From an uncultured bacterium (GTDB taxonomy: Bacteria > Patescibacteriota > Minisyncoccia > Phycocordibacterales > CAIZLB01), in NCBI GenBank assembly GCA_903933735.1, contig CAIZLB010000019.1, positions 1-36,400 of the forward strand: a DNA stretch of 36,400 nucleotides, read 5' to 3'. Position numbers and translations under genes: made by a program. This document shows positions 3,370 through 31,729 of the stretch, piece after piece. The notes beneath the pieces are model-generated. The model was not told where the DNA came from, searched no databases, and saw only the letters and a list, made by a program, of their open reading frames with translations. Each line of letters begins with the position of its first letter. Position 1 is the stretch's first letter.

Positions 3370-3746
3370 AGACGTTCGTTTCTTTCGTTTCGATCAGAAG
3401 TCCTCGTAAAATTTTTATAAAAATTTTCCTGCGGATGATCTCACTCAATAAACTCACTCAGGAAAAATATCACTGAGTAATAATATTTATACGACAAAAA
3501 ATACTATGTAAAGAGTATTACATAATTTTACTAAAATCACAATATATCGAGTTAACTTATTAACATAATCAATCAAACAAATTCTTTTGTTCTGTTTAAG
3601 TCCCCGTCTTTCCGAGATGTCAAAGTTTTACGAACTTCATCGCTTATATGAACGACAGCATATAAGAACTGTTGAATACTAATTGCTTAGATTCAGTAAC
3701 GACCGTTATTAATTTTTAACCCTCGAAAGAGCTAAAAACAGTTTTC
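3370..3746 (-). other. 16S rRNA 3' trailer and spacer to tRNA-Ile
   Basis: No protein gene is seen here. The segment 3582-3600 is complementary to 5286-5304 in the 16S leader (19 pairs, one G-U), which makes the long-range stem that RNase III-type enzymes would cut. It lies about 147 bases beyond the mature 16S 3' end. Between them are a perfect 8-bp hairpin (CTTATATG...CATATAAG, about 3642-3665) and a TAACG/CGTTA inverted repeat near 3699-3710. Nearer the tRNA is a 20-bp palindrome of A and T only (about 3408-3427). Confidence 0.7.
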
Positions 3747-5284
<1,538 letters not shown>

Positions 5285-9854: not shown

Positions 9855-10676
9855 TTAAGTGAGTTTTTTAATAGTATTATTATCTATTAATAACCGCATC
9901 TGAGATATTGCTATATCGTTCAGTTTTATCAATCTGTCTTTTTGAGATAATCCATTTTTGATGAATTCAGAGTTTAAAACCTCAAGATTTGATAAACAAA
10001 TGAGTTGAGTTATTTCTGCATAATCTCTCATATTTCCTTCTGTGTCTTTATTATTTAATCTCCAATCTTTTGCCGTCATACCAAATAGCGCCATGTTTAA
10101 AACATCTGCCTCGTTTGCATAGATAACATTTGAATCTTTAAGTGATATCTTGTTAGGGATGATTATATTTTCTTTTATTGAGTTTGTGTGGATTTTGTAA
10201 TTGACTTTAGTTAACATTCTTTTTACATTCCATTCTAGGTTTTTATTAGAAAATTCTTCATTTTTGAGTCTTTGAAATTCTTTTATGAGATATAGTTTAA
10301 ATTCTGGTGATAACCAGCTGGTAAATTCAAAAGCTATATCTTTATGAGCAAATGTACCTCCGTAGCGACCTGATGATGATTTTATGCCTATAGCACCCGT
10401 CTTTTTAATCCACTTCTCAGGAGAAATGACAAAACTATTATTACCAGCCTCTTTTTTAAACTGGTCGAATTCGACCAGTTTAAAATTTATATTATTTATT
10501 TTCTCCCAAATACCTATAAATTCTATAGTATTTTTATTTCTCATCCAGTTTTTGACTATACCTGCCGGAAATTTTGCGTCTTTAAACTTTGCCAGATCAG
10601 TCAGCGAAAAATAATCATCACCAATATCTGACATGTTTACGTTTATAATTTGATTATTTATTGTTATTTTTTCCAT
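9855..10676 (-). CDS. KilA-N domain protein
   Basis: A 273-residue protein whose first half (about 15-140) matches the KilA-N DNA-binding fold: YFSLTDLAKF, IVKNWMRNKNTIEFIGIWE, VEFDQFKKEAG, SGRYGGTFAHKDIAFEFTSW and LYLIKEFQRLK. These domains come from large DNA viruses and phages and are common in CPR genomes, usually with unknown targets. The C-terminal half (from about 150) shares the typical tail of the cellular forms (KISLKDSNVIYANEADVLNMALFGMTAKDWR). A perfect 32-bp palindrome lies inside the coding sequence over the VEFDQF codons. The ATG is six bases after a TGT-TATGAT extended -10 box. A regulatory or defence role is inferred only from the domain. Confidence 0.85.
   Translation of the reverse strand: MEKITINNQIINVNMSDIGDDYFSLTDLAKFKDAKFPAGIVKNWMRNKNTIEFIGIWEKINNINFKLVEFDQFKKEAGNNSFVISPEKWIKKTGAIGIKSSSGRYGGTFAHKDIAFEFTSWLSPEFKLYLIKEFQRLKNEEFSNKNLEWNVKRMLTKVNYKIHTNSIKENIIIPNKISLKDSNVIYANEADVLNMALFGMTAKDWRLNNKDTEGNMRDYAEITQLICLSNLEVLNSEFIKNGLSQKDRLIKLNDIAISQMRLLIDNNTIKKLT
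10454..10485. repeat. Perfect 32-bp palindrome inside the KilA-N gene
   Basis: Centred on TCGAATTCGA with arms TTTTAAACTGG. The left flank CTTTTTTAAAC is shared with the palindrome at 19398, and inner bases differ in matched pairs between the two. It encodes FKLVEFDQFKK, part of a motif normal for the family, so coding constraint explains at least part of it. Confidence 0.7.
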
Positions 10677-19431: not shown

Positions 19432-20271
19432 TTATTTCTTCTTAGTAATCTTCTTAAGTTCTTTTTTCTTTTCACTTTCTACTTTCCTCTCGACTTTTTT
19501 GACATCTTCCAGTGGTGGTAACTTTTCAGGAACAACACCTCTGGATATCAGAGTTGATCTTACACTTTTATTATTGGTAACATGTTCAGAGGATATCTGA
19601 TTTTCTGTTTTCATATTCTTTTCTCTTGCATTATGCACCGTAATTGCACTAGCAAATTCTTTGGCTTTCAATAAAATTGTTGGCATGAAATCAGCAATAG
19701 GTTTATCACCTGTATTCCATATAATTTTCATATCTGAAGTGGTTTTTCCTCCGAAAAATGCAATATCTCCTTTACTACGGATAAGTGCAAAGTTTTTATT
19801 ACCACCAGTTTGTTTAAGAATCACCGATGATAATTCCTTTTCTGTTCCAGTAAGTTTTTCTCTAGCTTTTAATCTATCAATCTCAGACAGTCTTTTTTCA
19901 ATAAGTTCAGCTCTTCTTGTTTGGATGGCAAAATATGTTTGAGCGAAAGCTATTTCCTCCTTTGAAGGGTTGCCATTTTGAGCTATGAGGTAGCAGGCAT
20001 AACGTGTGAGTGCTATATCATCAATTTCTCTTTGTGCACCCTTACCAAGATCTATCATCTTCCTGACGTCAGGAAAATGATCATAAATTTTTTCACCAAA
20101 GACTTCGCACGCTATTTTAGCCTTAAATATAGCATTTAAAAAGTTTTCCCACTTTGAATAACCAAGCAAGTTTTGCAAATCTCTAGCAAACCAAAATTCT
20201 AGACCATCATCGGTTTTATGTGCGAAGGACTCGAAGTTTTTTGTGAGTGAATGTATTATTTCTGGTTTCAT
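19432..20271 (-). CDS. dinD: DinD-like DNA-damage-inducible protein
   Basis: A 279-residue protein matching the Escherichia coli DinD layout along its length: [22 protein letters not shown] (BRO-N-like domain), [31 protein letters not shown] in pieces, a helical [22 protein letters not shown]...GDIAFFGG, and the C-terminal [25 protein letters not shown]. Escherichia coli DinD is SOS-induced and acts against RecA filament function. The role here is inferred. The tail is a Lys/Glu-rich extension. The ATG follows TGA-TAAAAT by nine bases. I see no convincing LexA box. Confidence 0.85.
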
Positions 20272-20324
20272 ATGAGTAGTATTTTATCATAGATTTTTTT
20301 GAGGAGATGTGGTGTAAATAATAT

Positions 20325-20357
20325 AAAAAAACGCCCCGCACACATGGTGAAGGGCTT
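20325..20357 (-). terminator. Terminator of the 20391 gene
   Basis: On the complement GCCC...GGGC is followed by GTTTTTTT, 34 bases after the stop. Confidence 0.75.
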
Positions 20358-20390
20358 AATATCAAAGACAGAATCAGACGATGATTTTCC

Positions 20391-20654
20391 TCATTCGAAA
20401 TTCTTATCGATCATAATCATATCATCTTCATTGGTCTGAATGACAGTGACTGAAAAACACAGTTCACCGACAGAATAAGAGACGTAGCGATATCTGATAT
20501 TGTTATGGGTCTGATAGTCGGTGAACAAATCATCTTTGTTCAAAGTAGAGATCCAAGTAAAGAATCCTTCGATCTGCCGATCTTTAACTTCGGAATGCGG
20601 CATTTGCTCAGCGATACGGAGAGCGTTGAGGTGGTTTAGGAATAGTTGTTTCAT
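20391..20654 (-). CDS. Small uncharacterised protein with a real 5' leader
   Basis: An 87-residue soluble protein (MKQLFLNHLNALRIAEQM... ending MIMIDKNFE), with no recognised family. Its promoter is clear at the -10 (TGT-TATAAT, 20689-20694) but lies about 34 bases before the ATG. The leader is A/C-rich (CAACCAACC, then GGACCAACCAA before ATG) and lacks a Shine-Dalgarno site. This contrasts with the leaderless pattern of its neighbours. The terminator is strong. It looks like another independently expressed single-gene unit. Confidence 0.65.
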   Translation of the reverse strand: MKQLFLNHLNALRIAEQMPHSEVKDRQIEGFFTWISTLNKDDLFTDYQTHNNIRYRYVSYSVGELCFSVTVIQTNEDDMIMIDKNFE

Positions 20655-20738
20655 TTGGTTGGTCCTGGTTACGTTTTCAGGTTGGTTGATTATAACATGA
20701 GTTTGGGGGTTTGTGGAGGGGGGGGTAAGCTATACAAA

Positions 20739-21110
20739 TCAAACAATATCTTCAATATGTTTTTGCCACCAAGTAGTTTCATTTTTCATATTTAAATCAT
20801 TCTTATTATATACCAAAAGTAATTCAGCTATAGCCTCTTTTTTGGATACTTTTACTATATACCTACAACCACTACTTTTCTTAGATTCTTTTGTACCAGC
20901 AACTGTAAATTCAACCTTTGCTATATAATAATCTTCATAGACATTTATTTTTTCAAAGAAATTTGTACTTGATAATTCATCAACATTTTCAAGTTGAAAA
21001 ACAATAGCCTTGAGAGTAATATCCCATTTGCTTAAATACTTTTTTAAAAAATATTTTATATAATGCTTTTCGGCATATTGATGGATTATTACAGTATACC
21101 TAATAGACAT
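20739..21110 (-). CDS. RelE-like toxin candidate partnered with Panacea antitoxin
   Basis: A 123-residue protein encoded directly after, and overlapping by 11 bases, the HTH-Panacea gene. The segment VYEDYYIAKVEFTVAGTKESKKSSGCRYIVKV followed by AELLLVYNKNDL is typical of RelE/HigB-superfamily proteins: strands carrying basic residues and a late LLVYxK segment. The N-terminus is less typical. In Panacea systems the second gene encodes a toxin, often of variable fold. An mRNA-interferase activity is possible but not shown. The call rests on context and a moderate motif match. Confidence 0.6.
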   Translation of the reverse strand: MSIRYTVIIHQYAEKHYIKYFLKKYLSKWDITLKAIVFQLENVDELSSTNFFEKINVYEDYYIAKVEFTVAGTKESKKSSGCRYIVKVSKKEAIAELLLVYNKNDLNMKNETTWWQKHIEDIV

Positions 21111-21792
21111 GATCAGGATCCTCTTGAGTTATGAGTTCATAATGTATAGCTTCCCCGTCACGACTGATTTTCCAAGGTAATTGAGAGTGTGTAAAATCAA
21201 CAATTTCTTTTGTTCTTTTATCTTCCCATTTTTTATATATTTTTTTTATAAGAGTAAGTTCATCTTTGTTAAGATTTTGAATAGGCTCATATTCGGCGCC
21301 ACGACCTAGAGATATGAGCATTGCATCTTTTTTGGTTTCGATATTTATCTCACCTTGTTCAAACATCTCATCAAGTACTCTAAAATAGACATCGGGTACA
21401 GGACCGTATTCCAGTCTCTTATATTGCATACCACTCATACTCACACAATTTTCATAGAACCAAGCGAAGTCGGCGAGATATACTAGCTTAGCAAGTTTTG
21501 TTTTAGGAATCTTACCGTCCTTTTTTCCACCAAGTTCCAGTTTTAGAAAAGAAGTGATTATGCTTTTATACTTTTCGATGTTGGGTGATTGTTCTCTAGA
21601 TATATCCTCTAGTGTTACACCGAACATATTGGCGAGAATATTTGCCTCACTTAATGTTATCTCCCTCTTGTCTTGTTCGATGTTTATATAACTTGTACGG
21701 GATATAGATAAAAAACCAGCCATCTGTTGTTGAGAGTAGCCTTTGGCTTCACGCTGGGTTTTTATGTATGTGCCGTGTTTTGTTGGGAGCAT
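21100..21792 (-). CDS. HTH-Panacea antitoxin
   Basis: A 230-residue fusion. Residues 1-66 form an XRE-type helix-turn-helix (TQREAKGYSQQQMAGFLSIS, then YINIEQDKREITL). Residues about 75-200 match the Panacea domain (DUF4065): KLAKLVYLADFAWFYENC, a short loop, then YKRLEYGPVPDVYFRVLDEM. Panacea domains neutralise many unrelated toxins by direct binding, and HTH-fused forms can repress their own operon. Here the presumed toxin follows with an 11-base overlap. The ATG lies six bases after TGC-TACACT, a leaderless arrangement. Confidence 0.85.
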   Translation of the reverse strand: MLPTKHGTYIKTQREAKGYSQQQMAGFLSISRTSYINIEQDKREITLSEANILANMFGVTLEDISREQSPNIEKYKSIITSFLKLELGGKKDGKIPKTKLAKLVYLADFAWFYENCVSMSGMQYKRLEYGPVPDVYFRVLDEMFEQGEINIETKKDAMLISLGRGAEYEPIQNLNKDELTLIKKIYKKWEDKRTKEIVDFTHSQLPWKISRDGEAIHYELITQEDPDHVY

Positions 21793-21859
21793 ATAAATAG
21801 TGTAGCATATGGGTGTCAGGATTGCGAACAGTTAGTATGTAAAATACGGACACTTAAAA

Positions 21860-21942
21860 ACATTAAACGCAAGTATCCTTATAATAAACAGTCTATATAA
21901 TTATAATTGAAAAGAACCATTCGGATAAATGATTCTTTTCAC
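21860..21942 (+). ncRNA. Possible small RNA (weak)
   Basis: The 231-base gap between the Panacea gene and the DUF3892 gene has a -10-like TG-TAAAAT-ACGGACAC near 21840-21850, similar to the promoters in the 29.9-30.6 kb array. It also has a 13-bp imperfect hairpin at 21909-21940 that could end a transcript. No -35 box at proper spacing was found. Confidence 0.25.
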
Positions 21943-22023
21943 AGAAATTTATTACATAAATTCCCTACAAAATTATTGTAACATATTTCTGGATTAAAAA
22001 TAACTTATCCACAAATTAAAAAT

Positions 22024-22314
22024 ATGTCAGTGAGAATAACGTGTATCACAAAAGATGATACAAATAACGAAAATAGATACACAGCAATAAGTGAATTAGG
22101 TTGGAAAAATGAATCTACAGGTAATACAGGTAGAGCATCACGATTAGAAATGTATAACTGGATTAAATTCAAAGGTGGATCAGCTTATGTAAAAGATAGT
22201 TCTAATAATACCGCCTACCTAATGACCGCGGAAACAAATAGAGGTACACAATATGTTAAGACTATAGCAGATGAAACTAAAACGGATAATTTACTAAGCC
22301 TGCCTAGGTGTTAA
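22024..22314 (+). CDS. DUF3892 family protein
   Basis: A 96-residue protein whose pattern fits DUF3892: VRITCITKDD, a short polar loop, AISELGWKNESTGNTGRASR, MYNWIKFKGGSAYVKDSSNN, and TKTDNLLSLPRC at the end. The family is small, widespread and of unknown function, often near mobile or defence genes; here it is convergent with the type I restriction operon. No helix-turn-helix or membrane segment is present. A strong bidirectional terminator separates it from hsdS. Confidence 0.8.
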   Translation: MSVRITCITKDDTNNENRYTAISELGWKNESTGNTGRASRLEMYNWIKFKGGSAYVKDSSNNTAYLMTAETNRGTQYVKTIADETKTDNLLSLPRC

Positions 22315-22324
22315 TTATATAAAA

Positions 22325-22370
22325 AATAAAACAGTATCAGAATAATATCTTGTGCTGTTTTATTATTTTT
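22325..22370. terminator. Bidirectional terminator
   Basis: AATAAAACAG and CTGTTTTATT form a ten-pair stem with T-rich sequence on both sides. It serves the DUF3892 gene (+) and hsdS (-), whose stop is five bases away. Confidence 0.85.
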
Positions 22371-22374
22371 TAAA

Positions 22375-23571
22375 TTATATTGATTCTCCATTAAAGGCCT
22401 CTTTTAGATATGCTTTTTCAAGTTTTTTAAAATCTTCGAGTTGGGATTTTTGGAGTTGTTTTAAGTTTTCTATTTTTTCAGATAATTTATCAAGTTCCTT
22501 AACAATTTCTTTTTGCTCAGCCAATGAAGGAATCAATATTTTAACCCCCTTTACTAATTGACTATTCAAATTTTGAACAACAGCACCTCCTGCAAGTTTT
22601 TTAAACTGACTATATATATCATCTGAACTTAAAAAGTAATATAAGTACTCTTCTGTTAATTCTTTTTTTGGTCTTAATAGTAACCAACCGTCGTGAATAG
22701 CTCCTTCCGTTTTCATTATATAAGGACGACCAAAACTCATTGAGTTTGTTAAAATAAAGTCTCCAGGATAAACCATTCTTGTTTTATGAAGACCTTCTTT
22801 TGTAATCTTTTGCTTAGTTTTATATATGTATTTAGTGGAATCTGTGGCATCTGATATCTTGATCCAGTTTATAGCATCAACATCATTTGTTAAATAGTGC
22901 TGAATAGGACGCGGAGATCCTCCTCTGGCGATTTCACATATTTCTCCCAGAGCTTCTTCTTTCCAATTCTTAATCTTACCTTGTTCGAATATATTGTGAA
23001 GTTTTTGGGATAATATTTTTTCTGTATCAGAAATAGATTCTTCCTGTAGTTGTTTTATTTTTGTTAGTTTATCAAATTTATTATCCAAAGATTTTATAAT
23101 TTCTTCTTGCTTATCAATCGGAGGGAGCGGTACATTAATTTTACTAATATCTGAAATCTTTAATGAAGGATATGCTGAATTAGATGTAATTTCTTTTGCA
23201 TCAACAGTTGTTAGAAAATAATATAAGTATTTTGATTGCACATTATTTGGATTTGGAGTAATTGTTGCAAGATGACTTGAGACATAACCATCACATCCCA
23301 TAATTACTCTGTGATTTAAAAAGGTTGAGGCACCACTCTTAGGAAACAATATTGTACCCTTTGTAAATAATTTTAAACCTTTGATACCGTTTTTATTCAA
23401 ATAATCTCTCACATGAGTCAAATGATCAGATAAATGAACTATCCCAACATCTGAGGTTCTGAAAAAAGGATATACCCCATCTTTAAAAAGATCTTTCTTT
23501 TGTGGTGCGGAGTTACCAGAAGATATTTCCGATATTTCTGATATTTTTTTTATTTGCCAATTAGTTTTCAT
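22375..23571 (-). CDS. hsdS: Type I restriction-modification specificity subunit
   Basis: The subunit that picks the two halves of the split recognition site. I start it at the ATG 23569-23571 (MKTNWQIKKISEISEISSG), giving 398 residues and an 11-base overlap with the OLD gene. The longer frame from 23607 adds 12 residues not typical of HsdS. There are two target-recognition domains, each followed by a conserved spacer helix. The first is about 1-170 (FFRTSDVGIVHLSD..., ending LPPIDKQEEIIKSLDNKFDKL). The second is about 205-398 (LGEICEIARGGSPRP..., ending IPSLAEQKEIVKELDKLSEKI). It is the last gene of the operon. The recognition sequence cannot be read from this. Confidence 0.93.
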   Translation of the reverse strand: MKTNWQIKKISEISEISSGNSAPQKKDLFKDGVYPFFRTSDVGIVHLSDHLTHVRDYLNKNGIKGLKLFTKGTILFPKSGASTFLNHRVIMGCDGYVSSHLATITPNPNNVQSKYLYYFLTTVDAKEITSNSAYPSLKISDISKINVPLPPIDKQEEIIKSLDNKFDKLTKIKQLQEESISDTEKILSQKLHNIFEQGKIKNWKEEALGEICEIARGGSPRPIQHYLTNDVDAINWIKISDATDSTKYIYKTKQKITKEGLHKTRMVYPGDFILTNSMSFGRPYIMKTEGAIHDGWLLLRPKKELTEEYLYYFLSSDDIYSQFKKLAGGAVVQNLNSQLVKGVKILIPSLAEQKEIVKELDKLSEKIENLKQLQKSQLEDFKKLEKAYLKEAFNGESI

Positions 23572-25453
23572 AAATATTTTTGATAAATTCTTTAATGTAA
23601 GATTCATTAATAATATCAGAAATTCTTTCTCCGTTATTTAATAATTTTTGAATTTGAAAAATTTTATCTAAACTAAGTTTAATAGTCCCGGGTTCAAGTA
23701 TTTCACCTCTAAGACTAAGTCCCTCTATATCAGAATTCAAAATAAGTATTGAATTTTTAGATAATTCTTTAATAACAGAATCTATTTCTAATCTTAGCCC
23801 TAGGCTAATATCATCTATTTTTTTTGCTAAATAAAAGCCTTTTTCATCTTTTTCTTTAATTTTTAACCTTAATGACGAAATTTTTTTCCTCAATCCTTCT
23901 TTTAAAAATTCTTTGTTGATGTCGACAACAGAATTATGACATTTATAATTAATACTATATTTTTTTCCGATCTCTTTATCTTTATCTCGAAGTAAAAAAT
24001 CAAAATCTGCAATGATAAAACATGGTATATCTAATTTATTCAACATATCAACATATTTAGAAAAATTATCTTTTGTTCCAACAGCAACGACAGATATATT
24101 TTTATTATCCAAACTGTATCCCGAATCATCCGCAATCCATCTTACAACATACTCATCAAGACCTTCAGTTAAGATAACTTTATCTGCAAAAAATATCTCA
24201 CTATATCTTACGTCTAAGATTAAATGCTTATTCTCTTTAATGCTTAAAGATTTTGCATGAGTACCATTTTCATCTTTTGTTATATTTATAATATTTAAAT
24301 TTTCATCAATTGTTTTAATAAACTCAGTAGAATGAGTCGTTATAATAACCTGATGATTTCCATCAGCAAATGCATCCAGTCGATCACTTACAACCCTTCT
24401 CGCATGTGGATGAAGGAATATTTCAGGCTCCTCAACACAAAGAAGTGCTGATGAGGTAGTGTTAATATTTTTTGTATAATAATTAAATAATCCAATAATA
24501 GTCGCACTTTGGATTCCTGAACCTTTTTCAGAAAGAGGACTATCTATACCGTCATTTATGTATATTTTTGCGTTTTTATAAATTTCAGTGTCCAGACTAT
24601 CATTAAATTTTATCTCAAGACTGGCACCAGGAAAAGCAATATCCAATGATGTTTGTTGCATTTCTTCTTTTACTTCAGAAAAAATTTTATCAGCTTCAGC
24701 ACCTATTTCTTTGAATTTTTTTAGTAAATCTTCTGTTTTTTTAGATTCAACCAATGATTTCATCAATTTACCATACCAAGACCAATTGTTTAATCTTAAT
24801 TGATTTTGAGGATCTCTAAATGACGGAATTATAGCACTTTGCAAAAACTCATTTCTAATTGGAGCCTTAAAACCAAGTGTATAATTCTCACCATCCGCAC
24901 TATAAGTAAACATTATCTTTTTTGTAACCCTCTCTTCTTGTCTTTTGGCTTGAAAAATAAAAACGATATTGCTAACATTTTGAAATTCAGCGGTAAAACC
25001 AGTCTGATTTTTGAGTTTTGGGTTTACATAAATTTTTTCACTTTTATCCAAAGAGTCTACATCTATGTCAAACATTTTTTTACAATTATCAAAATTAAAA
25101 ATATCATCTTCTTCATAAGATTGAGTGTGCTTATAGTAACCGTAACATTTGTTAATTTCTTCAAAATTCAAGACGATTAATTCATCATTACCATCTTTTT
25201 CTCTAGTCAACTCAATTAATATATATATTTCATTTGAGAAATCTGTACCGTTATTATAAAAATCATTCTTTGTAACATTTTCACTCTTAGCATAATCGGG
25301 AGAGTTCTCACCCAAAATTAAATCTATGGCTTTTATAATATTACTCTTGCCTCCATTATTCTTACCTACTATAATATTTTTTTTGGGAGAAAACTTAAGA
25401 TCTAAATCTTTAATTGATCTATAATTTTTTACTTTCAATCTACTCAGATACAT
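23561..25453 (-). CDS. OLD-family nuclease (AAA ATPase plus TOPRIM) inside the hsd operon
   Basis: A 630-residue protein. The N-terminal ABC-type ATPase has MYLSRLKVKNYRSIKDLDLK, Walker A GKNNGGKS (30-37), the signature SEKGSGIQ, Walker B LLCVEEPEIFLHP and the switch His in TTHSTEFI. A TOPRIM domain follows with KVILTEGLDEYVVRW and IADFDFLL, the acidic residues that hold metal for DNA cleavage. This is the architecture of OLD nucleases. There is no UvrD partner, so it is not Gabija. It starts six bases after hsdM stops and overlaps hsdS, so it is co-transcribed with and embedded in the restriction system, in the manner of the R-linked ORFs of Campylobacter. A defence role is inferred. Confidence 0.9.
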   Translation of the reverse strand: MYLSRLKVKNYRSIKDLDLKFSPKKNIIVGKNNGGKSNIIKAIDLILGENSPDYAKSENVTKNDFYNNGTDFSNEIYILIELTREKDGNDELIVLNFEEINKCYGYYKHTQSYEEDDIFNFDNCKKMFDIDVDSLDKSEKIYVNPKLKNQTGFTAEFQNVSNIVFIFQAKRQEERVTKKIMFTYSADGENYTLGFKAPIRNEFLQSAIIPSFRDPQNQLRLNNWSWYGKLMKSLVESKKTEDLLKKFKEIGAEADKIFSEVKEEMQQTSLDIAFPGASLEIKFNDSLDTEIYKNAKIYINDGIDSPLSEKGSGIQSATIIGLFNYYTKNINTTSSALLCVEEPEIFLHPHARRVVSDRLDAFADGNHQVIITTHSTEFIKTIDENLNIINITKDENGTHAKSLSIKENKHLILDVRYSEIFFADKVILTEGLDEYVVRWIADDSGYSLDNKNISVVAVGTKDNFSKYVDMLNKLDIPCFIIADFDFLLRDKDKEIGKKYSINYKCHNSVVDINKEFLKEGLRKKISSLRLKIKEKDEKGFYLAKKIDDISLGLRLEIDSVIKELSKNSILILNSDIEGLSLRGEILEPGTIKLSLDKIFQIQKLLNNGERISDIINESYIKEFIKNIYEN

Positions 25454-25459
25454 ATAAGT

Positions 25460-26869
25460 TTACTTTAAAAAAGCTAAGATTTTACCAATCTCCCCCATCC
25501 TCTCCACCACCCTCTGGACCAACTCATCCGAACTCAATTCGACCTCCACTTCCCCTACATGTGGATTTTTTGAGTCTAGATTCCAATTCTTATTTTCTAT
25601 ATCTTCTATAGAAACCTTCCATGCATTTTCATTTTCTTTTTTATTACCCATCCATTCTTTAACCACATCAAATTCTCCGTCAGTTATAGGTCTATTTCTA
25701 TTATATTGTCTCAATCCTTCAGGTAACTTCATTTGATAATACCAAACCTCTTTTGTTGGTTTTCCTTTTGTAAAAAATATAAGATTTGTATTGACTCCGG
25801 CATAAGGTTGGAATACTCCTTGTGGTAATCTTATTATTGTGTGAACATTACACTCTTTAAGTAAATGTTCTTTTATTTTAGCCCCCACACCTTCACTAAA
25901 AAGCGAACCGTCTGGCAGAACAATACCAGCTCTCCCCTCATCTTTTAATAAATGAACAAATAAAACTAGAAACAATAAGGCTGTTTCTTTAGTTCTAAAA
26001 TTTGCTGGAAAATTTAATTCTGTCCCATCTGTTACTTTAGCTCCAAAAGGTGGGTTTGCCAGTATTACATCTACTCTATCGTTTGGACCGTAATCATTAT
26101 ATGGACGAGATAACATATCCCCACGAAGTATAGTTGAAGGATCCTCAACGCCATGCAATATCATATTTGTTACAGCTAGCATATGAGGCAGAGGTTTTAA
26201 TTCTATTCCATGTATTTGTTCATGAAGTTTTTTCTCATCTTGAGATGTACCAACCTCTTTCCTCATATGTTCAAGTGCATTTGTTAGAAAACCTCCAGTA
26301 CCACACGCTGGGTCTAAAATCTTATCTCCTAATTTTGGATTTACTGTTTCAACAATAAATCTTGTCAGGGGTCTTGGTGTATAAAACTCTCCCGCACTTC
26401 CAGCACTTTGTAGATCTTTTAATATCTTTTCATATAAATCTCCAAAAGCATGCCTATCGCTATTTTTATTAAAATTTATTTCATTTATTTTATTAAAAAC
26501 TCTACGTATTAATACGCCATTTTTCATATAATTATAAGTGTCAGAAAATACAGTTTTTATTATAAGACCTCTTGGATCTATGGTGGATAAATCTTTTAAA
26601 CCTGGAAATAATTCTTTATCAATAAAATCAGCTAATTCTTGTCCTGTTATACCTTTATCATCCTTGGCCCAATTTCTATATCTAAATTTTTCTGGTATAG
26701 GTGATTTATACTTATTATCTATAAGCTCAAGATTTTCTTCTCTGTCGTCAAATATTTTTAGAAATAACATCCAAACTAATTGCGATATTCTGTTTGCATC
26801 ACCATCAAGACCTGCGTCTTGCCACATTATATCTTGTATACTTGATATTATATTTTGTATATTTCCCAT
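25460..26869 (-). CDS. hsdM: Type I restriction-modification DNA methyltransferase subunit
   Basis: N6-adenine methyltransferase subunit, 469 residues. The N-terminal helical domain has IQNIISSIQDIMWQDAGLDG in its first 25 residues. The AdoMet-binding motif DPACGTGGFL starts at 186 and the catalytic motif NPPF is at 272-275. AFGDLYEKIL and GEFYTPRPLTRF are also typical. The C-terminal part ends DELVQRVVERMGEIGKIL, a helix that docks on HsdS. It follows hsdR after a single base and precedes the OLD gene by six bases, so translation is probably coupled. With HsdS it protects host DNA; with HsdR it cuts unmodified DNA. Confidence 0.96.
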   Translation of the reverse strand: MGNIQNIISSIQDIMWQDAGLDGDANRISQLVWMLFLKIFDDREENLELIDNKYKSPIPEKFRYRNWAKDDKGITGQELADFIDKELFPGLKDLSTIDPRGLIIKTVFSDTYNYMKNGVLIRRVFNKINEINFNKNSDRHAFGDLYEKILKDLQSAGSAGEFYTPRPLTRFIVETVNPKLGDKILDPACGTGGFLTNALEHMRKEVGTSQDEKKLHEQIHGIELKPLPHMLAVTNMILHGVEDPSTILRGDMLSRPYNDYGPNDRVDVILANPPFGAKVTDGTELNFPANFRTKETALLFLVLFVHLLKDEGRAGIVLPDGSLFSEGVGAKIKEHLLKECNVHTIIRLPQGVFQPYAGVNTNLIFFTKGKPTKEVWYYQMKLPEGLRQYNRNRPITDGEFDVVKEWMGNKKENENAWKVSIEDIENKNWNLDSKNPHVGEVEVELSSDELVQRVVERMGEIGKILAFLK

Positions 26870-26870
26870 A

Positions 26871-29246
26871 TTAATTATTATATAAACTTAATTGCACATT
26901 TTTAATCATTTCTAAATACTTCTCCCTTCCACCAAAGATATCATTCACGATCTCTATAGGTGTTCCAAAATCAGTAAATGGAGAAACAACTAAATCACCT
27001 ATATCATCAATAGCCGTAATACCACTATCAGCATATTTTTCAAACAATAACTCTATAATTTCTCTTGCTTTTCCTTCATATTTTACAAAATAATCAGTGG
27101 CTTTAGCTTGTTTTATTCTTTCACTTCTTGTCATTGGTTTTTTACCATAAGCTATATGTAAAATAAGATCGAATACATCCATATCTTTTCCGATCTCCTT
27201 TCTCAACTCTTCAAAAGCGACACCTCTGTCAAGTAACTCATTTACTATGATATCTTTTCGATCTGATTCTTTCCATTTTGTCAGAAAATCATCTATAGAA
27301 TCATATTCATTTATAATAGTTTTCTTTGAAAAATCTTTCAATGACTCAGTTATAAGTTTTCCGGTTGATGGATCAATATATTTAACTTCTTGATGTATTG
27401 GATAAAAATCTACCCCATCTTTTATACGAATCCTCTTTGGTTTTTCTTCTGTATCTGTTCCATCTATAATAACATCAGCTTGCGGATTATATTCTTTAAT
27501 CTGTTCTTCAGACATAGTTTCGTTTTCTATTAAATTACCAACATTGAATGACTCATTTCCATCAGCCTCATATGCTTTTATTGGATCACCGTCAAAAGTT
27601 GGATCTGCGAACAATCTTGTTACATTCCTAAAATCCATGATAGTGAAATAATATTTACCGTATTGCTCTTCGACACGAGTTCCTCGACCTATTATTTGTT
27701 TAAATTCAGTCATAGAATTCATAGGCGAATCTAAAACTATCAGTTTAACAGTTTTTGTATCCACACCTGTAGATAAAAGTTTTGATGTTGTTGCAATAAC
27801 GGGATATCTTGATTCTGGATTTGTAAAATTTTCTATTTCCATTTTTCCGTATTCATCATCACCTGTTATCTTAACTACAAATCTACTATTTTCTTTTACC
27901 TGTTCAGATAATTCATTTACAAAACATTGTCTCATACGTTCTGCGTGATCTATGGTTGTACAAAATACAATAGCCTTTTGATATATATCAGTCTGTCTCA
28001 TAAAATCCGCCACACATTTTGCAACAGCGCGGTTGCGAGCATCTATAATAATTCTTCTATCAAACATATTTTCATTATATATTTCATCAGGAACAATATT
28101 TCCATCTACATCAGTAAAGCCCTGAGCAGGTCTCCATTCATCATTATTAAATCTATATCTTATAACTTTATAAGGTGCCAAAAAACCGTCATCTATACCC
28201 TCTTTTAAAGAATATGTATATACAGGATCTCCAAAATAATCACCTGTACTGATATCCACTGTTTCCTTTGGTGTAGCAGTTAAACCTATTTGTGTAGCAC
28301 TACTGTAGTGTTCCAGAATCTCTCTCCAAGCACTATCAGCATTTGAACTTCCTCTATGGCACTCATCGATTATTATAAGGTCAAAAAAGTCAGGAGAAAA
28401 ATCCTGAAAAAGTTTTCTCTTTTCCTCTTCAGCTTCAATGTCATCTTCTTTTCTACTATCTCCTGTTAAACCTTGATACAAGGCGACATAAACCTCATAA
28501 GCTGTATCAACAACACCATTTTTAACCCTAGTCATTGAACTTCCAAAATGTTTAAAATCACCTTGCATAGTTTGTTGAGCCAATGCAGTTCTATCTACCA
28601 AAAATAATATTCTTTTCTTTTTTCTTGATTTCCATAAACGATAAATAATCTGAAAGGCTGTATATGTTTTACCTGTACCTGTAGCCATCACAAGTAAGAT
28701 TCGATCTTTACCTTTTGCAACTGCCTCAACAACTTTATTAATAGCGTTCTCTTGATAATATCTAGGACCTTTACCTGATGGATCTATAAAATAATCTTGA
28801 AGTAAAATATCTTTTTGCTCTTGGTTACAATCTTTTGCCTCTATGTATCTCCTTAACAATTCTTCAGGATTAGGAAACTCATCCATAGTTAAAGTTATTT
28901 CAGTCCCTCTCAAAAAATCAAATTCAACATATTCCAACCCATTAGTACTGTATGCAAACGGTATATTTAAAATCTGAGCATATTGTTTAGCTTGTTCAAG
29001 ACCCGCACCAGCAGAATGTCTAGCGTCCTTAGCTTCAACTATAGCTATGGGTAAATTATTTTTATAATACAAAATAAAATCAGCCCGTTTTTTTTCACCA
29101 CGAGAGATTGTTTTTCCATCGACTTTAATACGTCCTGCTGTAAAAGTTTTCTGTTCCCGTATCTGTAAAAATTGATCCCATCCTGATTTTAATATAGATG
29201 GTAATACATATTTTGAACAGATATCTTGTTCTGATAAATCTTGCAT
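26871..29246 (-). CDS. hsdR: Type I restriction endonuclease subunit (EcoEI-type)
   Basis: The motor and nuclease subunit, 791 residues and first in the operon. The N-terminal PD-(D/E)xK nuclease has D56 in ADFILYY and E71-A-K73 in IVEAKD. The SF2 translocase follows with Walker A ATGTGKT (188-194) and DECH box (294-297), GLTATP, and the second RecA-like lobe with TSKLLSTGVDTK and QIIGRGTR. The C-terminal part matches the EcoEI R extension. The order hsdR-hsdM-OLD-hsdS is on one strand with minimal spacing. The start ATG lies nine bases after TGG-TAATAT. All catalytic residues appear intact. Confidence 0.96.
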   Translation of the reverse strand: MQDLSEQDICSKYVLPSILKSGWDQFLQIREQKTFTAGRIKVDGKTISRGEKKRADFILYYKNNLPIAIVEAKDARHSAGAGLEQAKQYAQILNIPFAYSTNGLEYVEFDFLRGTEITLTMDEFPNPEELLRRYIEAKDCNQEQKDILLQDYFIDPSGKGPRYYQENAINKVVEAVAKGKDRILLVMATGTGKTYTAFQIIYRLWKSRKKKRILFLVDRTALAQQTMQGDFKHFGSSMTRVKNGVVDTAYEVYVALYQGLTGDSRKEDDIEAEEEKRKLFQDFSPDFFDLIIIDECHRGSSNADSAWREILEHYSSATQIGLTATPKETVDISTGDYFGDPVYTYSLKEGIDDGFLAPYKVIRYRFNNDEWRPAQGFTDVDGNIVPDEIYNENMFDRRIIIDARNRAVAKCVADFMRQTDIYQKAIVFCTTIDHAERMRQCFVNELSEQVKENSRFVVKITGDDEYGKMEIENFTNPESRYPVIATTSKLLSTGVDTKTVKLIVLDSPMNSMTEFKQIIGRGTRVEEQYGKYYFTIMDFRNVTRLFADPTFDGDPIKAYEADGNESFNVGNLIENETMSEEQIKEYNPQADVIIDGTDTEEKPKRIRIKDGVDFYPIHQEVKYIDPSTGKLITESLKDFSKKTIINEYDSIDDFLTKWKESDRKDIIVNELLDRGVAFEELRKEIGKDMDVFDLILHIAYGKKPMTRSERIKQAKATDYFVKYEGKAREIIELLFEKYADSGITAIDDIGDLVVSPFTDFGTPIEIVNDIFGGREKYLEMIKNVQLSLYNN

Positions 29247-29297
29247 AATAAGTTGATATTACCATAAAATATCGCTTATATAAAGAAATTTTAAAGT

Positions 29298-29885
29298 TTA
29301 TTTTCTCCCCGAAAACACCCAAACCACCCCTCCCACAACCGCCCCCATCACATCCATCAACATATCCTTCTGTGCATCCCACACATCACCCTGTGACCCT
29401 AAAAACGCAATCCCTGCACTTCCTCCCTCTTTAACCGCATATATCCACTCTATCCATTCATAACAAACCGCCACAAATGCTATAGCAAAAACCCCATACA
29501 AAAACGTAACGAGTCTACTTTTAATAATCCCCCGACTCCACACATATTCCATTATCGGCAATGCATAAAAACCTACAGTAAAATGTCCTACCCTATCAAA
29601 CATATTTCTCTCAAATCCAAACAAATCACTAAACCATTGAAAAGGAACTCTCTCAAAAGTATAATGTCCACCTATAGTATGTAAAAAAGGTAAAAGGAAT
29701 ATCAAGAAATAAGTTATATTGGAAAAACGAACTTTCTTATAATATAAAAACGTAATCACTGCTACCAATATAAATATCGGGGCATTCTCTGCATACCAAA
29801 CATCTCTTGAATATGGACTTATTCCAAGCCAGATGAATTCGATAATATATATTGCAAGTAATAGATGTGGGAAATATTTTTTCAT
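29298..29885 (-). CDS. YjdF/DUF2238-like integral membrane protein
   Basis: A 195-residue protein with about five or six membrane helices and the conserved stretch LHTIGGHYTFERVPF, then RVGHFTVGFYALPIMEY and AVCYEWIEWIYAV. These His/Glu-containing motifs within helices define the YjdF (DUF2238) family, whose function is unknown. The C-terminus has GSQGDVWDAQKDMLMDVMGAV, also typical. Its promoter is one of the clearest leaderless cases: TGC-TATAAT (29892-29900) exactly six bases before the ATG, back to back with the first small-RNA promoter. Confidence 0.85.
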   Translation of the reverse strand: MKKYFPHLLLAIYIIEFIWLGISPYSRDVWYAENAPIFILVAVITFLYYKKVRFSNITYFLIFLLPFLHTIGGHYTFERVPFQWFSDLFGFERNMFDRVGHFTVGFYALPIMEYVWSRGIIKSRLVTFLYGVFAIAFVAVCYEWIEWIYAVKEGGSAGIAFLGSQGDVWDAQKDMLMDVMGAVVGGVVWVFSGRK

Positions 29886-29903
29886 GGGTTTATTATAGCA
29901 AAT

Positions 29904-30055
29904 TTGACTATTATTTACCTTTTGCTAAAATACACAATGTAACAAGCTACAACGGGACAGAAGGCCCTTAAGCCTTCTGGATTTAACAAAATCCTAACCG
30001 TAAGCTGGCGTCCTATCGCATGGAATATAGATATCCTTAATTGGATATTTTTATT
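29904..30055 (+). ncRNA. Small RNA unit A with promoter
   Basis: Promoter TTGACT (29904-29909), 16-base spacer, TAAAAT (29926-29931). The transcript should start near 29938. It contains the hairpins AGAAGGC-ccttaa-GCCTTCT and GGATTT-aac-AAAATCC, and a GGGAC/GTCC pair that may close a junction around them. It ends with ATATCC-ttaatt-GGATAT and TTTTATTTT (30031-30057). No conserved small open frame is seen, and no known RNA family is recognised. Confidence 0.6.
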
Positions 30056-30166
30056 TTATGTTTTATCAGAACCTATAGCTACCATATCGAGCATATCCTC
30101 GAAATGGTCTTGATAAAAATGACCAATTAATTCTAAAGAGGTTTTTGCCACTACCGGCAAAAACCA

Positions 30167-30258
30167 TTGACACAAAAAGAATCCCCATGATAAAATCTAC
30201 ATGTAGCAAAGAAAAAGGTCTTTATGAAGTTCTGTCTTCATCGAGGGCTTTTTCATTT
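30167..30258 (+). ncRNA. Small RNA unit B with promoter
   Basis: Promoter TTGACA (30167-30172), 18-base spacer, TGA-TAAAAT (30191-30196), start near 30203. A compact RNA of about 55 bases: outer stem GAAAAAG/CTTTTTC around ATGAAG-ttctgt-CTTCAT, then a T-rich end. Confidence 0.55.
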
Positions 30259-30279
30259 ATAAACTCATAAAATCACAAT

Positions 30280-30425
30280 TTGACAGTAGAATAAGGTTTG
30301 ATAAAATACAATCATTACCTTTGACGCCAGACGCCTTCTCTGGTTGGCCAAAAGCCTAGATTGGTATTATAGGCCTATAGAAGGCCCCCTACTTATAATG
30401 TTTCCTCTACCGAGGAGGCGTTTTA
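30280..30425 (+). ncRNA. Small RNA unit C with promoter
   Basis: Promoter TTGACA (30280-30285), 16-base spacer, TAAAAT (30302-30307), start near 30314. The body is about 110 bases, includes a ten-base palindrome ATAGGCCTAT, and ends with TCCTC-tacc-GAGGA and TTTT (30403-30424). It shares the promoter but not the body with units D and E. Confidence 0.5.
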
Positions 30426-30433
30426 AGTTTATA

Positions 30434-30540
30434 TTGACATAAAAATATCACCCATGATAAAATACACACATAACAAGTTAGACCCCTAAAGGATGGCCGT
30501 CAATTGATGGCCAATTAGCTCCCTAGGGGCTTTGTTTTAC
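30434..30540 (+). ncRNA. Small RNA unit D with promoter
   Basis: Promoter TTGACA (30434-30439), 18-base spacer, TGA-TAAAAT (30458-30463), start near 30470. The RNA begins AACAAGTTAGACCCCT and ends AGGGGCTTTGTTTT, so its ends pair, enclosing a stem TGGCC/GGCCA. The start and end sequences recur in unit E, while the roughly 40-base core does not. Confidence 0.6.
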
Positions 30541-30555
30541 CTGAGTATTCTGAAT

Positions 30556-30658
30556 TTGACAAAGATTTTAGGTTTGATAAAATACACACATAGCAAGTTA
30601 GACCCTCGATGAAGGACTACCCACAGGCGGTCCACACGTTTCTCGGGGGCTTTGTTTT
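30556..30658 (+). ncRNA. Small RNA unit E with promoter, paralogue of D
   Basis: Promoter TTGACA (30556-30561), 16-base spacer, TGA-TAAAAT (30578-30583), start near 30590. It shares ACACACATA, CAAGTTAGACCC and GGGGCTTTGTTTTACC with unit D but has an unrelated core. The T-run overlaps the stop codon of the opposing DUF3800 gene at 30657. Confidence 0.6.
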
Positions 30659-31220
30659 ACCTGAGTATTATCTGATCTTTCAATTTTAAAAAGTAAACAG
30701 AATATCCATACTCTAGATGAGAAAACACTGACCATGAGTAAAAATCGGCTATCTGTAGAGACTTCTCTAAAGCAGGGTCAGAAAATTGTAATTCCATACC
30801 ACTAGAATGGAATAGATTAATTATATTTTTATTATAACTCTTTCTTGTATCCCTCTTTGCTAAAGTGATCTGGGTGACTTTTAAAGTTGAAAAATAAATG
30901 ATTATTTTATTTAACAAATATCGATAAGGATCCTTTACGAAAATTTTATTTTTATCCAAAATAAAAACGATACATTTCAAATCTTTTTCTCGCATCTCTT
31001 TTGCTAACTTATTTTTCACCACATTGTCTTCATTATAAGTATGTAAAATACTTGTTCTTTTTTTACTTAATTTAAATTTATATATATTTTTAACAACACG
31101 CCTCAACACAAAAGGATCCCCAACTACAACAGCTGTAAGTATAAAATACCTGGTTGATTTCTTTGTATATCCAGTGTCGCCACTTTCATCTATGTATATA
31201 TTTTTCTTCTCCATCCCCAT
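30657..31220 (-). CDS. DUF3800 protein, predicted RNase H-fold nuclease-like
   Basis: A protein of up to 187 residues with the DUF3800 marks: YIDESGDTGY at the N-terminus (two acidic residues), VFILDKNKI in the middle, and the C-terminal SLQIADFYSWSVFSHLE with its Asp. The family is often tied to defence or mobile loci, and its fold resembles RNase H. The ATG at 31220 directly follows a TAGAAT -10-like box, so transcription would start near the second ATG (31212-31214). The real N-terminus may be MEKKNIYIDESG, leaving 185 residues. The 3' end overlaps the terminator of small RNA unit E, so the two transcripts are antisense there. Confidence 0.8.
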   Translation of the reverse strand: MGMEKKNIYIDESGDTGYTKKSTRYFILTAVVVGDPFVLRRVVKNIYKFKLSKKRTSILHTYNEDNVVKNKLAKEMREKDLKCIVFILDKNKIFVKDPYRYLLNKIIIYFSTLKVTQITLAKRDTRKSYNKNIINLFHSSGMELQFSDPALEKSLQIADFYSWSVFSHLEYGYSVYFLKLKDQIILR

Positions 31221-31286
31221 ATTCTACAAAAACACACCTAAAGTTCTCATAAAGAAAATATAAATTTTTACCAAAGAAACCCCCAA

Positions 31287-31318
31287 CAAAAAAACCGCCA
31301 CCCCCTCACACTGGGGAT
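31287..31318 (-). terminator. Terminator of the lipoprotein gene
   Basis: On the complement CCCC-agtgtga-GGGG and GTGGCGG lead into TTTTTTTG, about 20 bases after the stop. Confidence 0.75.
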
Positions 31319-31339
31319 GACGATCAGAATCAAACGTGA

Positions 31340-31729
31340 TCACTGGCCATAAGTGGCCTGGCGGCCCTGTTCGAGCGCACTGGCAGCAGGATTATAACGC
31401 CGAGGTTGTTGTCGCATCTCGATAGCTCGAAGCTGGGCTTTTTGGAACTCAACCTCGCGATCATAGATCGCCTTTTGAGTCGGGGTCATATAACCCCCAC
31501 TGTTGCCACCCGATGGCTGGGTGAGACTTTCGATATAGGCCCGGCGATTCAACTCCGCCTGCCTGTTGGCATCCCTGATGGCCATTTGCTGTTGTCTGTC
31601 GGCATCGGCCCTGGCTTTCGGGTCATATTCGGTGCCGACCACTCGGCCGTTTTCATCAGTCACCACAGTGCAGGATGACATCAGGACGGCGATGATGATA
31701 AAAATAATCAAATTCAGAAACGTTTTCAT
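31340..31729 (-). CDS. Small lipoprotein, G+C-rich single-gene unit
   Basis: A 129-residue secreted lipoprotein. A hydrophobic signal ends in the lipobox LMSSC (Cys20), which would be lipidated and held in the membrane. The mature part is polar and rich in Arg, Gln and Ala (DADRQQQMAIRDANRQAEL, RRAYIESL, YDREVEFQKAQLRAIEMR), probably helical. No family is recognised. Base composition is near half G+C, far above its neighbours. The promoter fits TGTAAC-N17-TACACT with a leader of about 29 bases that is A/C-rich (CACCCACCAACAACA before ATG) and lacks a Shine-Dalgarno site. Recent transfer is a reasonable guess. Confidence 0.75.
   Translation of the reverse strand: MKTFLNLIIFIIIAVLMSSCTVVTDENGRVVGTEYDPKARADADRQQQMAIRDANRQAELNRRAYIESLTQPSGGNSGGYMTPTQKAIYDREVEFQKAQLRAIEMRQQPRRYNPAASALEQGRQATYGQ

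Follow-up and report, generated by a model that had tools for sequence, protein, structure and literature searches.

The window analysed here, a stretch of 36,400 nucleotides (36.4 kb), contains a gap at approximately 29886-30656, between a DUF2238 gene and a DUF3800 gene that both lie on the minus strand. The gap is part of a variable island between nifS and thrS, which holds BRO, SocA/HTH, HsdS, OLD-like ATPase, HsdM, HsdR and DUF2238 genes, the array of promoters and hairpins described below, and the DUF3800 gene. In two congeneric genomes nifS and thrS lie close together and the island genes are absent. The type I restriction genes of the island are complete, and the OLD-like ATPase sits within the hsd cluster; PADLOC returned no defence model besides a weak match to NYN. 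A phage origin was considered and is unsupported, since the search of viral contigs was nearly empty: these hold no relatives of DUF3800-2 or of the PBECR2-like protein, and two weak matches to DUF3800-1. The features of the island and the gap are as follows; translations of gene-end remnants are given up to the stop codon.

19432-31729, no strand assigned: variable island with the array, between nifS and thrS
29298-29885, minus strand: DUF2238 gene
29904-30060, plus strand: unit 1, family A, partner type DUF3800-2; promoter 29904-29931, RNA about 29937-30060; match to covariance model R2 at 29934-30057
30037-30069, minus strand: DUF3800-2 gene-end remnant (last codons) in unit 1, LIKHKIKISN
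30058-30168, plus strand: structured stretch between units 1 and 2, folding z -5.52, with no good promoter of its own
30167-30256, plus strand: unit 2, family B, partner type NYN nuclease; promoter 30167-30196, RNA about 30200-30256
30222-30260, minus strand: NYN gene-end remnant in unit 2, INEKALDEDRTS
30280-30424, plus strand: unit 3, family C, partner type PBECR2-like protein; promoter 30280-30307, RNA about 30308-30424; match to covariance model R3 at 30308-30429
30367-30432, minus strand: remnant of the last ~21 codons of a PBECR2-like gene in unit 3, INLKRLLGRGNIISRGPSIGL
30434-30543, plus strand: unit 4, family D, solitary copy; promoter 30434-30463, RNA about 30470-30540; match to covariance model R1 at 30464-30539
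30537-30554, minus strand: DUF3800-1 gene-end remnant (last codons) at unit 4, FRILR
30556-30663, plus strand: unit 5, family D, with the DUF3800 gene adjoining; promoter 30556-30583, RNA about 30590-30660; match to covariance model R1 at 30584-30659
30657-31220, minus strand: DUF3800-1 gene, the convergent partner of unit 5 (PF12686, E 5.5e-14)

Five extended promoters start on the plus strand of the gap, at 29904, 30167, 30280, 30434 and 30556. The first has the form TTGACT-16-TAAAAT and matches the consensus at 10 of 12 positions; the other four are TTGACA-18/16/18/16-TAAAAT, respectively, each matching at 11 of 12, and a TGn extension precedes the -10 element in all five. When the gap was dinucleotide-shuffled 2000 times, comparable TGn promoter sites numbered 0.008 on average and one at most, and no other plus-strand promoter in the whole window is as good as these five. 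The RNAs that would start from them all fold better than their shuffled counterparts, with z-scores from -2.3 to -5.1 (-5.07, -4.6, -2.3, -3.75 and -2.49 for units 1 to 5), and in units 4 and 5 the terminator is the entire last hairpin. The original prediction of five co-directional promoters, each followed by a compact structured segment, is thus borne out; the regular spacing that it also described is not, the promoter starts being 263, 113, 154 and 122 nt apart. Together with the conservation and covariation described below, promoters and folding support the reading of the gap as five separate putative small-RNA transcription units, which were sorted into families A to D by sequence and fold. 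As had been stated beforehand, none corresponds to a known RNA family: the units of the window gave zero matches to Rfam 15 at up to E 5. The structured stretch between units 1 and 2 closes with a strong hairpin (GGTTTTTGCC/GGCAAAAACC) and could be the remnant of a sixth unit.

Units 1 to 4 are solitary, with no nuclease partner beside them, while unit 5 faces an intact DUF3800 gene. The antisense remnants in the solitary units resemble the ends of intact genes: those of DUF3800-2 end in LLKHKIKIPD or ILKNKIKILN and those of NYN in ENKKALIKHAT or ENKKAADEDGTS (L229, L237), each before the stop codon, and a PBECR2-like profile matches the remnant in unit 3 at 30370-30438 on the minus strand (E 2.4e-4). 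A decayed protein gene had been named in advance as an observation that would count against small RNAs; half of this is true, since remnants of nuclease gene ends do lie antisense in units 1 to 4, but the conserved element is the RNA of the opposite strand. Orphan RNAs elsewhere in the same genome also match RNAs that converge on DUF3800 genes in related genomes: C25 matches G005:C27 with a score of 96 (shuffled maximum 25), C44 matches G002:C3 with 70 (27) and C24 matches G002:C9 with 64 (31). Gene-end remnants and orphan matches together indicate that the units derive from two-gene modules, and the solitary units appear to be modules whose nuclease was lost or was not copied along.

Relatives of the units were found both in the bacterium's own genome and in its congeners, convergent to nuclease-like genes, which answers the proposal that such units be sought in related genomes. 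With the gap as query, the own genome (822 kb) yielded 15 further matches, and covariance models found six copies of family D, six of family A and five clear copies of family C in it, with more copies in two congeneric genomes; family D extends beyond the genus, to a second genus of the family and to another family within the order. Further copies of family A lie on C17, C44 (two), C37 and C34 of the own genome and in G001 and G002. Wherever the partner of family A is present, the RNA lies at the end of a DUF3800 type 2 gene, opposite its 3' end (C44 and C34 of the own genome, twice in G001 and four times in G002), and 12 of its pairs covary, against 3.5 in shuffled alignments. Hairpins of the family B type overlap the 3' ends of NYN genes on C17 of the own genome and in G003, G005 and G007; as subtypes are mixed in the pooled alignment of this family, no consensus fold emerged from it. 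Copies of family C were found on C22, C17, C27 and C12 and in G002, and on C22, C17, C27 and G002:C14 the RNA overlaps a PBECR2-like gene over roughly its final 25 codons. The assignment of this partner to PBECR is weak (E 0.084) and its structure is poorly predicted (pLDDT 49.6). The RNA family paired with the 3' end of DUF3800 type 1 genes is D, and the RNA consensus fold is a nested hairpin.

Several other loci of the own genome carry similar elements. A fifth RNA family (AACAATCGGCTTGCTGCGG...) lies at L013 (C28) and L009 (C22), and its partner gene on C28 ends in ...HFEIVTMHYKK..., like the PBECR2-like protein. At L023 (C24, 1100-1400), three tandem promoter-hairpin units stand behind a third type of DUF3800 gene, two of the three with a nearly identical GCGTCTGGTGCTCC...GGGCGCTTTTC hairpin. 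At L010 (C27, 699-777), a solitary copy of family D converges on a KilA-N domain gene; another KilA-N gene lies in the window, at 9855-10676.

The protein encoded beside unit 5, DUF3800-1, is predicted to have an RNase H-like fold: its AlphaFold model has a pLDDT of 91.9, and the best Foldseek matches of the model are archaeal RNase HII proteins (E 7e-7). A sequence search of the PDB gave a lone marginal match to a TnpB-like protein (E 0.0049), which was treated as chance. We know of no demonstration of toxin activity for DUF3800. The predicted fold agrees with the RNase H fold predicted for DUF3800 in the literature (PMC10910872). A first detector of promoters and short terminators found 11 of 75 DUF3800-1 genes positive, against 9 of 287 controls; it proved too strict for long hairpins and was therefore replaced by folding z-scores and promoter counts. 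At other DUF3800 genes of the relatives, structure at the 3' end exceeds that of control genes (p = 0.0025), not at every gene; those at L178, L193 and L022 have no obvious partner RNA. The Rfam motifs DUF3800-V and DUF3800-II occupy the same convergent position at L189, L071 and L176. At L175 (G002:C3, 2084-2624), a DUF3800 gene is accompanied by a weak DUF3800-IX-like RNA with a tmRNA gene directly beside.

Family D was followed further in 79 loci encoding DUF3800-1 homologues, obtained by a search of a genome collection and spanning CPR bacteria, Nitrospirae, deltaproteobacteria, Ignavibacteria, Bacteroidetes, Omnitrophota and one archaeon. Covariance model R1, built solely from the family D copies of this genome, matches 50 of the 79 loci, 42 of them at E <= 0.01, and most of the remaining loci show a like RNA by eye. 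All matches are antisense to DUF3800, and all but one extra copy in L084 adjoin its stop codon. In an alignment of 53 sequences, 91.5% of cells are paired, falling to 38-51% once the partners are slid by 1-3 columns, and cells changed on both sides number 202, against 42 +- 10 after shuffling. Most positions lie in paired, covarying helices, with no variable guide-like segment, and the RNA ends at the DUF3800 stop codon, not inside the open reading frame. Among the copies of the own genome the 5' part and outer stem are 92% identical and the core 56%, with the fold kept. Ten strong family D loci gave no match to Rfam 15 at up to E 1. Family D is a real structured and covarying RNA family without an Rfam 15 model. 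Nearly all of those with a match among 25 genomes searched whole have a single copy, and multiple solitary copies are therefore a feature of this genus. Two DUF3800 loci contain additional RNAs: at L071 (Omnitrophota, 3630-3815) a DUF3800-V RNA and a family D-like RNA stand in tandem behind one DUF3800 gene, a two-unit array, and at L065 (Yanofskybacteria) the group I intron model RF00028 matches 4180-4471 with 51 bits, near a DUF3800 gene.

The same arrangement was found at genes of other nucleases. PemK/MazF and NYN genes were surveyed in six genomes of the family, counting those that have an extended promoter on the antisense strand no more than 190 nt from the stop codon. Such a promoter is present at all 12 PemK/MazF genes, against 10 of 102 control genes, and at 6 of 10 variable NYN genes, against 0 of 6 NYN genes that are conserved and housekeeping-like. 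In the hairpin of the PemK RNA, 7 of 12 pairs carry compensatory changes. The toxicity of PemK/MazF enzymes is well established and requires no RNA. None of the 12 loci has a same-strand open reading frame of at least 40 amino acids within 40 nt upstream of pemK, and we take from this that the usual protein antitoxin, PemI, is missing. The Rfam pemK RNA model had no match among 116 genomes of the phylum, a result that is uninformative. At G005:C1 (L241, 5551-7458), genes for PemK, NYN and PemK follow one another, with a convergent promoter at each 3' end.

Our analysis suggests a model in which the array, within a defence island, is probably a set of antitoxin or immunity RNAs, of which four are orphans. 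As seen in the sequence, genes of the DUF3800, NYN/PIN, PBECR2-like and PemK/MazF types in this lineage each have a convergent, small structured RNA with a strong promoter of its own, and the 3' end of this RNA coincides with the end of the nuclease gene or falls within it. The RNA would fold, bind the nuclease and hold it inactive, acting as a single-hairpin antitoxin that the strong promoter provides in excess. Unit 5 would protect against the adjoining DUF3800 protein, and units 1 to 4 would come from modules that lost the nuclease or were copied without it. These may have been retained because the RNA works in trans, against related nucleases of the genome or newcomers on mobile DNA, so that the whole would form an anti-addiction or immunity array under selection for immunity. 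Transcription of the units, binding to their partners and neutralisation are steps that we infer; the model is drawn from the separate strong promoters, the kept fold, the partner-specific association with RNases, the lack of PemI and the fact that solitary copies have been kept.

The main rival to this model, which we consider unlikely, is that of convergent antisense RNAs of the type I kind, which would block or destabilise the nuclease mRNA by pairing with its 3' end; solitary copies would then pair imperfectly in trans or be remnants. The RNAs do overlap convergent gene ends, an arrangement known from SR6/yonT of B. subtilis (PMC5848175); units B and C extend into coding codons, and long though imperfect duplexes are possible between orphan family D RNAs and the end of the DUF3800 mRNA (-61 to -94 kcal/mol). 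However, antisense action in cis does not need strong compensatory covariation of helices, family D stops at the stop codon instead of entering the reading frame, and its core has diverged far more than its 5' part and outer stem while the fold was kept. Helices that covary, and a core that has diverged but still folds, point to structure as what is recognised. A role as cofactors or guides, in which the nucleases need the RNA for activity and the array provides it in trans, is less probable still. The RNA family follows the type of nuclease, and DUF3800, with its RNase H-like fold, is found alongside some CRISPR effectors (PMC10910872, PMC12669027), but family D lacks a variable segment, which makes it an unlikely guide. 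Nor do PemK/MazF toxins fit, as they act without RNA.

The original prediction had raised, as an open question, whether the units regulate mRNAs by base pairing as known tandem small-RNA sets do; on that reading they would be trans-acting RNAs that pair with unrelated mRNAs. Five independent promoters and compact hairpins are what such a set would present, but each family is tied to a particular type of nuclease-like gene across loci and genomes, and the copies share structure, their cores retaining it over sequence, with no conserved single-stranded seed; we regard this reading as very improbable. A stack of kept antidotes is preferred over ordinary mRNA regulators because the families face nucleases and the enzyme has been lost in four of the five units. 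Equally hard to credit is non-functional debris left by the deletion of nuclease genes in a hot spot of module turnover, a reading suggested by the remnants in units 1 to 4 and the variable island, as all four solitary units retain near-consensus promoters and folds and the orphans at several loci still fold despite their divergence. Also considered and set aside were a guide array, cassettes of an integron-like kind and plain 3' UTR terminators.

If the RNAs are indeed antitoxins, they may represent a new toxin-antitoxin class with interchangeable parts, in which unrelated RNases (DUF3800, NYN, PBECR-like, PemK/MazF) are combined with convergent single-hairpin RNA antitoxins and multi-specific solitary arrays; we put this broader proposal forward tentatively. 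DUF3800-associated RNAs have stood in Rfam without a known role, and PemK genes with an RNA in place of the protein antitoxin, together with the solitary arrays, turn RNA antitoxins placed head-on to nucleases into a testable idea. Family D adds a new RNA family across many phyla. The array further suggests that ultra-small bacteria may keep RNA immunity against several toxin types cheaply, because each antidote costs ~100 bases.

The closest known elements are the Rfam DUF3800 motifs (DUF3800-II RF02961, DUF3800-V RF02964, DUF3800-IX RF02968 and DUF3800-I RF02969), likewise small structured RNAs beside DUF3800 genes. Families D and A, structured small RNAs at DUF3800 gene ends, are of the same kind as these motifs, yet all four families A to D fall outside every Rfam 15 model; here the arrangement is also found with NYN, PBECR2-like and PemK genes, and solitary copies are gathered in arrays. 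New, then, are RNA families A to D with respect to Rfam 15, the extension to NYN, PBECR2-like and PemK partners, and the arrays of solitary RNAs. As in the type III systems ToxIN, CptIN and TenpIN, an RNase is paired with a structured RNA that would neutralise it. Those systems are one-promoter operons in which the antitoxin is encoded upstream of the toxin as short tandem repeats and the RNA is pseudoknotted (PMC5086642), whereas here a single hairpin has its own promoter, converges on the 3' end and accompanies other nuclease families; the layout of upstream repeats in one operon with a terminator between was not seen. The convergent small RNA that overlaps the 3' end of a toxin gene recalls the type I pair SR6/yonT of B. 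subtilis. Overlap with gene ends is present here too and duplexes are possible, but the partners are nucleases, not small hydrophobic peptides, and the RNA is conserved in its very structure, with covarying helices. The 12 pemK loci lack the antitoxin gene that lies directly upstream in the type II pemIK/mazEF systems, and the array does not have the repeat-spacer layout of CRISPR or TIGR-like loci, as its units have their own promoters, belong to different families and, in family D, contain no hypervariable spacer. In purpose the array may resemble solitary antitoxins and anti-addiction modules, in which an antitoxin without its toxin could protect against a related incoming toxin (PMC2654758); the known ones are proteins, whereas here several RNA families stand in one array.
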